In this document: positions 15,332 to 26,827 of the stretch, one piece after another
Numbering within the stretch: the stretch's first letter is position 1
Layout: each line of letters starts with the position of its first letter
Source: Candidatus Eiseniibacteriota bacterium
GTDB taxonomy: Bacteria; Arandabacterota; Arandabacteria; JAGLYR01
Direction of reading: 5' to 3'
NCBI GenBank assembly: GCA_023132135.1
Contig: JAGLYR010000020.1
Location: 1-27,940 of the forward strand
Length of the DNA stretch: 27,940 bases
Program-made: the position numbers and the translations under genes
The notes under the pieces: generated by a model
Databases searched by the model: none
Seen by the model: only the letters and a program-made list of their open reading frames with translations
What the model was told of the DNA's origin: nothing

Positions 15332-15361
15332 GCGCGTTCCTGGCCGTTGCCAGCCTTCCTG

Positions 15362-15480
15362 TCCTTCTCTCATCCAGACTTTCACTGTCGGCTCCGGAAT
15401 CTCACCGGATCAGCAGATGTCCTGAACATCCGCTCGCGGGCTATCACCGCCGGTGGGGATTTTCACCCCGCCCCGAAGGA
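15362..15480 (-). promoter_or_regulatory. FMN riboswitch (RFN element)
   Basis: The minus strand carries the RFN consensus in order: TCCTTCGGGGCGGGGTG, CCCCACCGGCGGTGAT, AGCCCGCGAGC, a variable stem, GATCCGGTGAGATTCCGG, GCCGACAGT, AGTCTGGATGAGAGAAGGA. The P1 helix closes between TCCTTC (15480-15475) and GAAGGA (15367-15362). FMN binding normally lowers expression of riboflavin genes; here a terminator follows 31 nt downstream, indicating transcriptional control of ribD and the genes behind it. Confidence 0.96.
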
Positions 15481-15502
15481 TCAAGGATCTATGACTGGTC
15501 AC

Positions 15503-16272: not shown

Positions 16273-16353
16273 GAGGGTCGAAATCGGCGGCGCAACGCAG
16301 TCCAGACACATCCTGTGACTCTCGCAGCAGGGATTCATGAATAACGCAGGCTA
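16273..16353 (-). repeat. MITE-like dispersed element, copy 2 (one half only)
   Basis: Eighty-one bases align without gaps to 26258-26338, 72 identical by hand count. The minus-strand end reads TAGCCTGCGTTATTCATG. Homology stops about halfway through the element, and no second inverted terminus is seen down to the PAS gene start. It lies in the divergent promoter region between the PAS and DUF2225 genes. Confidence 0.85.
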
Positions 16354-26172: not shown

Positions 26173-26183
26173 ACCCTTACCTC

Positions 26184-26338
26184 TAGCCCGCATTATGCAC
26201 AAGTCTTCCAGCCTGGCGCGGGGTCGATTTCGACCGGAGGCGCAGCCACGCTCCGCTGAGGATCGAAATCGGCGCCGCAACGCAGTCCAAGCATATCCTG
26301 AGACCCTCGCAGCAGGGATTCATGAATAATCCAGGCTA
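26184..26338. mobile_element. MITE-like hairpin element, copy 3 (apparently complete)
   Basis: About 155 bp. The left end on plus reads TAGCCCGCATTATGCA; the right end on minus reads TAGCCTGGATTATTCA, an imperfect terminal inverted repeat with 13 of 16 positions equal. The interior is also self-complementary: TCGATTTCGA near 26224 against TCGAAATCG near 26263, with GC-rich flanks. There is no open frame and no transposase. TA at both borders fits a two-base target duplication. The TAG at 26338-26336 ends the DUF151 gene, and the other end touches the ribosome site of the binding-protein gene. Confidence 0.75.
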
Positions 26339-26827
26339 TGGGGATACGTTTCCGAAATCCTCCGGATCCATTCCCTCAAGGAAGTCTCTCAGCTGTTGTG
26401 CGGGGTCGCTGGATTCCATTTTCCGGCCCTGAACCTCGAAGAGATCTTCGGCAACGTAGATCGGCGATCCGGTTCGCAGAGCCAGCGCGATGGAATCACT
26501 GGGGCGCGCGTCGATGCTGAGGATTTCATTGTCCCGCTCGAACACCATCTTCGCGAAAAACGTATTGGTGCGGATCTCCGTGACGGCCACCTTCTCCAGA
26601 TTGACCTTGAGCCCGTCGATGATCATCTTCATCAGATCATGGGTCAAGGGCCGCTCGAATTTCCTCCCCGCCAGTTCAAGGGCAATGGCTCCTGCCTCGG
26701 CATGGCCAATCCATATGGGGAGGACCCGATCCCCGTTCGACTCCCGGAGTATGACCACAGGACTGCGCGCGTTTTCATCCAACCTCAGACCACTTACGCG
26801 CACCTCAACCATCGTCCGCTCGTCCAT
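26336..26827 (-). CDS. Bifunctional nuclease family protein (BFN/DUF151)
   Basis: 163 residues from ATG at 26827, 11 bp after the preceding stop; ATG at 26812 is an alternative. The DUF151 pattern is clear: VVILRESNGDRVLPIWIGHAEA (about 24-45), FERPLTHDLMKMIIDGL, FFAKMVFERDN, and IDARPSDSIALALRTGSPIYV. Members have been reported with DNase and RNase activity, but the physiological role is unsettled. The acidic tail ends at the TAG contributed by the adjacent repeat element. Spacing indicates an operon with the PpiC-type gene upstream. Confidence 0.9.
   Translation of the reverse strand: MDERTMVEVRVSGLRLDENARSPVVILRESNGDRVLPIWIGHAEAGAIALELAGRKFERPLTHDLMKMIIDGLKVNLEKVAVTEIRTNTFFAKMVFERDNEILSIDARPSDSIALALRTGSPIYVAEDLFEVQGRKMESSDPAQQLRDFLEGMDPEDFGNVSP

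Follow-up and report, generated by a model that had tools for sequence, protein, structure and literature searches.

A gap element and its relatives in the same genome

What is the 155-bp palindromic element that lies between two genes at 26184-26338 of this bacterial contig, and what enzyme could have moved it? The window (the whole stretch of DNA analysed, 27,940 nucleotides) places it between a gene for a bifunctional nuclease domain protein (PF02577; 26336-26827, minus strand) and a downstream gene for a periplasmic ligand-binding protein (PF13458; 24949-26160, minus strand). The initial annotation described a MITE-like element with TAGCC inverted ends. These ends are present, with TAGCCCGCATTATGCA (26184-26199) facing inverted TAGCCTGGATTATTCA (26323-26338) at 13 of 16 identical positions. 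The element does fill the intergenic gap, as had been noted, but its right border also overlaps the nuclease gene, whose TAG stop codon (26336-26338, minus strand) is made by the element border. The interior folds back as described, although the predicted structure embraces less of the element than had been proposed. Folding of the window copy is moderate (-60.1 kcal/mol, z -2.7), and the outermost left 26 bases or so are not in the main stem. A scan of the element for promoters and terminators returned nothing, and no site resembling the suggested outward promoter was found.

Two further family members lie in the window: a half copy consisting of the right arm only (16273-16353, plus strand), and, at the edge of the contig (1-24, plus strand), the terminal part of a third copy, whose TAG at 22-24 on the minus strand serves as stop codon for an open reading frame (ORF) spanning 22-1716. 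An Rfam search of the window also located an FMN riboswitch (15358-15484, minus strand) 5' of riboflavin genes, an ordinary feature.

The whole-genome search that the initial annotation proposed gave 41 BLAST matches. Nearly all of them begin at window position 26215 or beyond, and so lack the left 30 bases. Counted over the 3.4-Mb genome, the end core CCYGSRTTATTCA has 150 occurrences (74 forward and 76 reverse), and a reversed-pattern control has 0. These copy statistics for the genome combine search counts with individually retrieved loci. The conserved unit is 180-182 bp long (complete copies L002, L004, L005, L009, L010 and L012), and such copies form one long hairpin that is far stronger (z -11.8) than that of the window copy. 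Shorter derivatives of 50-68, 32 and 21 bp are also found. The 21-bp form TAGCCTGGGTTATTCAGGCTA would be the expected product of a deletion between two CAGG repeats near the ends. With a length of 155-182 bp, many copies, inverted ends and a size too small for a transposase gene, the element is MITE-like and non-autonomous, as first described. Contigs of this draft genome frequently terminate inside a copy, as the window itself does at bases 1-24. The repeats therefore affect assembly and the annotation of gene ends.

The window copy departs from the usual form at its left side. Its core hairpin and right terminus (26215-26338, plus strand), here called AB, share 86-95% identity with the genome's other long copies. 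The usual left arm of about 56 bp is gone, and a different end type stands in its place. This 36-bp terminus (26184-26219, plus strand; TAGCCYGSATTATGCACAAGT...) is about 75-80% similar to other ends of a sister type C (TAGCCTGGATTATGCACAAGT...), of which the genome holds 32 at no more than one mismatch, against 1 for the reversed control. The two parts meet at a short shared stretch. Because the left 36 bp match type C and the remainder is the common core, the window copy is, by sequence comparison, a chimera in which a sister end was fused to an internally shortened IS1380-type MITE.

Other repeats adjoin or resemble these elements. One, in the window's genome, is composed of TAGCCTGGACTATGCACAAATCC, a 44-bp palindrome and then CAGGCAGAGCAATAGAGAAGTAGACAATAGA (L344, L347, L348, L359, L360, L365 and L367), and has the look of a composite that includes an end of IS1380 type. 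Short repeats like GGGACTACGCACTAGGGACT, which contain CTAG, adjoin element borders at L007, L020, L025, L068 and L072 and may be targets. Half elements at L024 and L027 are followed directly by the common repeat CGTCATCCCCGCGAAAGCGGGGATCCA. At L149, an element at CTAG adjoins another inverted repeat, GGAGCTTGTCCGAGAATGA...CATTCTCGGACAAGCTCC.

Shared ends and target duplications across bacteria

The 19-base end TAGCCYGGATTATTCATGA is found in at least 117 genome stretches from Nitrospirota, Planctomycetota, Myxococcota, Acidobacteriota, Armatimonadota, Proteobacteria, Cyanobacteria and other groups, and its spread among relatives is very uneven. Paired ends enclose hairpins at spacings of 165-167, 177-186, about 200 or 211-216 bp, and the interiors vary by lineage. 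A different relationship is seen between hairpins of the sister end type E in the window's genome (L398 and L399) and those of genome G006 (L086-L091). Their interiors (GACCGGAGGCGTA...TACG..GAGGATC, GCCGCAGCAGA) are clearly homologous (z 25-32) and their termini are unlike, as if the termini had been exchanged.

The duplication generated by insertion was examined in 64 strict end pairs, with the window's own genome left out, by comparing the bases that abut CC...GG. Identical 4-mers (CTAG, CTAA and TTAG, and also ATAG) flank 34 of the 64 pairs, and none of the 64 agrees over just 2 or 3 bp. Shuffling gave a mean of 21 identical pairs, because CTAG is frequent on both sides, and reached 34 in 0 of 100,000 trials. 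Matching tetramers other than CTAG number 8 where 1.5 are expected (P 1e-5). One end of each collected locus had been picked for its TAG, and the test therefore draws its weight from the opposite side and the fourth base; the shuffles preserve these margins. Comparison of occupied and empty sites, a check proposed at the outset, gives the same picture. Three Nitrospira relatives (L330-L332) have the site empty, with a single tetramer where the occupied site (L164) has the element and two tetramers. The element at L147 is missing from one Dokdonella relative of 91% identity. With 34 of 64 identical 4-mers, no identity confined to 2 or 3 bp and single tetramers in empty sites, the target duplication is a 4-bp YTAR sequence, as in autonomous IS1380 elements, and not the TA that had been proposed.

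This duplication is seen at the level of the family. In the window copy, the left border tetramer CTAG (26183-26186, plus strand; the target-site side) and the right border tetramer CTAT (26336-26339, plus strand) match in three of four bases, and the latter is a degenerate target duplication. Matching flanking tetramers are seldom seen in the AB copies of the window's genome (2 of 22). Many borders in this genome read GTAG, and in AB copies the fourth base is often unlike between sides. On the A side, conserved sequence often continues past TAG (GCTGCCGTTG); A is therefore unlikely to be where those copies truly end. The scarcity of matching tetramers perhaps reflects age together with this conserved sequence beyond the A end.

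An IS1380-family transposase as probable partner

IS1380 transposases are bacterial relatives of piggyBac. Full-length transposons with the same ends, which the initial annotation proposed to look for, are found in cyanobacteria. At L119 (3383-5006) and L121 (4359-5995), the ends stand 1624 and 1637 bp apart, and each pair encloses a single 449-aa IS1380-family transposase (PF13701, NF033539). In other genomes, IS1380 genes are preceded by ends like TARCCYGGATWTTTCA (similar in L270, L271 and L295). Autonomous IS1380 elements have duplications of CTAA/CTAA (L121) and TTAG/TTAG (L270). Among 98 genomes, four of the eight that carry the end motif also carry IS1380, versus 0.73 expected (P 0.002). 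The one end pair spaced 0.7-3.5 kb that was looked at outside cyanobacteria (L142) encloses a host gene and no transposon.

The statement that no transposase is in view holds for the window but not for the genome, which contains one full-strength IS1380 transposase match (C139:3029-4375). This gene is 5'-truncated, apparently by a neighbouring insertion sequence, and it is flanked by an end, TAGCCCGCATTTCTCACCA, that differs from the AB type of the window. The resident end type (CCCGCATTTCTCACCA; CCYGCATTTCTCACCA) has 86 and 94 occurrences in the genome, about 180 altogether (control 0), and is found on 175-bp hairpins among others. Duplications of TTAA/TTAA and CTAG/CTAG flank 3 of 12 pairs of resident-type hairpins. 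Since the CCYGCATTTCTCACCA ends that flank the resident IS1380 gene recur some 180 times, the resident element comes with its own MITEs, to which the window's family is, judged by sequence, a sister. An exact IS1380 partner of the AB end type was not found in the genome's own assembly. PF13701 has no match in several element-rich genomes (G006, G042, Nitrospira, Sedimenticola and Dokdonella). The partner is therefore lost from these genomes or absent from their assemblies.

The element is thus very probably a non-autonomous MITE, with ends that serve in trans as recognition sites for a DDE transposase of the IS1380 family. The transposase would cut at CC...GG and insert at a YTAR tetramer (CTAG, TTAG, CTAA or TTAA), duplicating 4 bp. 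Mobilisation in trans by such an enzyme is suggested by the shared ends, and most copies are presumably no longer mobile. The long hairpin consists of two inverted arms. Deletions at short repeats may remove part of the interior of such hairpins and so give the 50-68, 32 and 21-bp derivatives, and recombination with sister types could have produced the window copy. These hairpin repeats are a new MITE group within a known IS family, widespread and with an ordinary mechanism. In the portion of the literature searched for both IS1380 and MITE, no IS1380 MITE is described.

Three other origins were weighed against an IS1380-mobilised MITE. A structured RNA or mRNA-processing element, kept between co-directional genes for its regulatory role and not moved, would account for the strong hairpins and for a site between two genes of the same direction. 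This is very improbable, given the sharp borders with target duplications and the uneven spread among relatives. Nor is there a match to a known RNA family, which the initial annotation had named as evidence against a mobile element, for the window copy or for full copies in Rfam; the best hit of the full copies (E 0.24) is below the gathering threshold and outside the element. Individual copies could nevertheless have acquired an effect on single mRNAs.

The initially favoured origin, an IS630/Tc1-type MITE with TA target duplication, draws on the TA at both borders of the window copy, and the fourth base that often differs by side in AB copies is also what a TA duplication would give. Its probability is slighter still, because flanks in other genomes are identical over 4 bp, including CTAA/CTAA, TTAG/TTAG and ATAG/ATAG, same-ended autonomous elements are IS1380, and empty Nitrospira sites have one tetramer where the occupied site has two. 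As for a candidate partner of that type, DDE_3 has no match in the window's own genome, and the DDE_3 match close to an element of G006 proved to be a piece of an IS630 inside a MITE copy. Least probable of all is mobilisation by a RAYT tyrosine transposase, as for repeats of the REP/REPIN type. Y1_Tnp matches occur in 13 of 15 genomes tested, and many borders in the window's genome are GTAG, the REP ending. However, no RAYT locus has these ends on both sides, with just isolated MITE copies or weak matches nearby, and the units, at 165-216 bp, are longer than the 20-40 bp of REPs and differ from them in having target duplications and inverted ends in pairs.

Stop codons at element borders and known systems

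Borders with a nearby ORF of at least 120 codons were counted. The border TAG is the exact end of the ORF in 28 of 74 cases in the window's genome and 42 of 150 in other genomes, counts that are indicative because the ORF calls are mechanical and the loci partly redundant. With the same reservation, the in-frame position has 40 of 89 cases and the other two frames 7 and 12, and CTAG provides the stop at 23 of 52 borders versus 37 of 210 CTAG sites away from elements (P 1e-4). CTAG is also rare in the window (6 observed, 19 by Markov expectation), where the borders at 26338 and 24 each supply a neighbouring gene's stop codon. The position of copies at gene ends would be explained by the scarcity of CTAG, by its frequent place in stop codons and by the duplication, which retains TAG or TAA at the border, such that the stop codon of the target gene stays intact.

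Stop codons supplied by repeats are already known for GTAG REPs (PMC3733652), and the 4-bp duplication offers a mechanism for them here. An IS1380 origin also explains the TAG...CTA bounds of these repeats, and 4-bp YTAR duplication at stop codons is a simple rule by which a mobile element could become numerous without gene breakage. A likely partner can now be named for a repeat family that is very widespread and apparently has no name. A broader, tentative proposal, which we consider somewhat doubtful, is a guild of IS1380-type MITEs spread across bacteria, for which stop codons serve as landing pads and in which an old hairpin interior swaps termini and follows different IS1380 subfamilies. 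If so, YTAR duplication would leave a working TAG or TAA, and hundreds of copies could sit at gene ends at little cost.

Among the closest known systems is the IS1380 family itself (NF033539, PF13701), which shares the terminal sequence, the CC...GG ends and the 4-bp YTAR duplication (L121, L270). In contrast to its members of about 1.6 kb, the element is 155-182 bp, lacks a transposase gene and is a hairpin throughout. The piggyBac superfamily likewise has a 4-bp duplication with a central TA (TTAA) and ends starting CCC (PMC10813416), and type E of the window's genome reads TTAA|CCC...GGG|TTAA. Members of that superfamily are eukaryotic and target mostly TTAA, whereas CTAG is commonest for these elements. 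MITEPye1 of Paracoccus yeei, linked to IS1182 and present in 1-3 copies per chromosome (PMC11578231), is also short and non-autonomous, with inverted ends, direct repeats, a long stem-loop and no transposase gene; here the ends are of IS1380 type and number well over 100 in the window's genome. GTAG REPs, which end in GTAG and whose TAG is often the stop codon of a flanking ORF (PMC3733652), are similarly palindromic, extragenic and high in copy number, with TAG as a stop codon, but they are 20-40 bp long and RAYT-associated.
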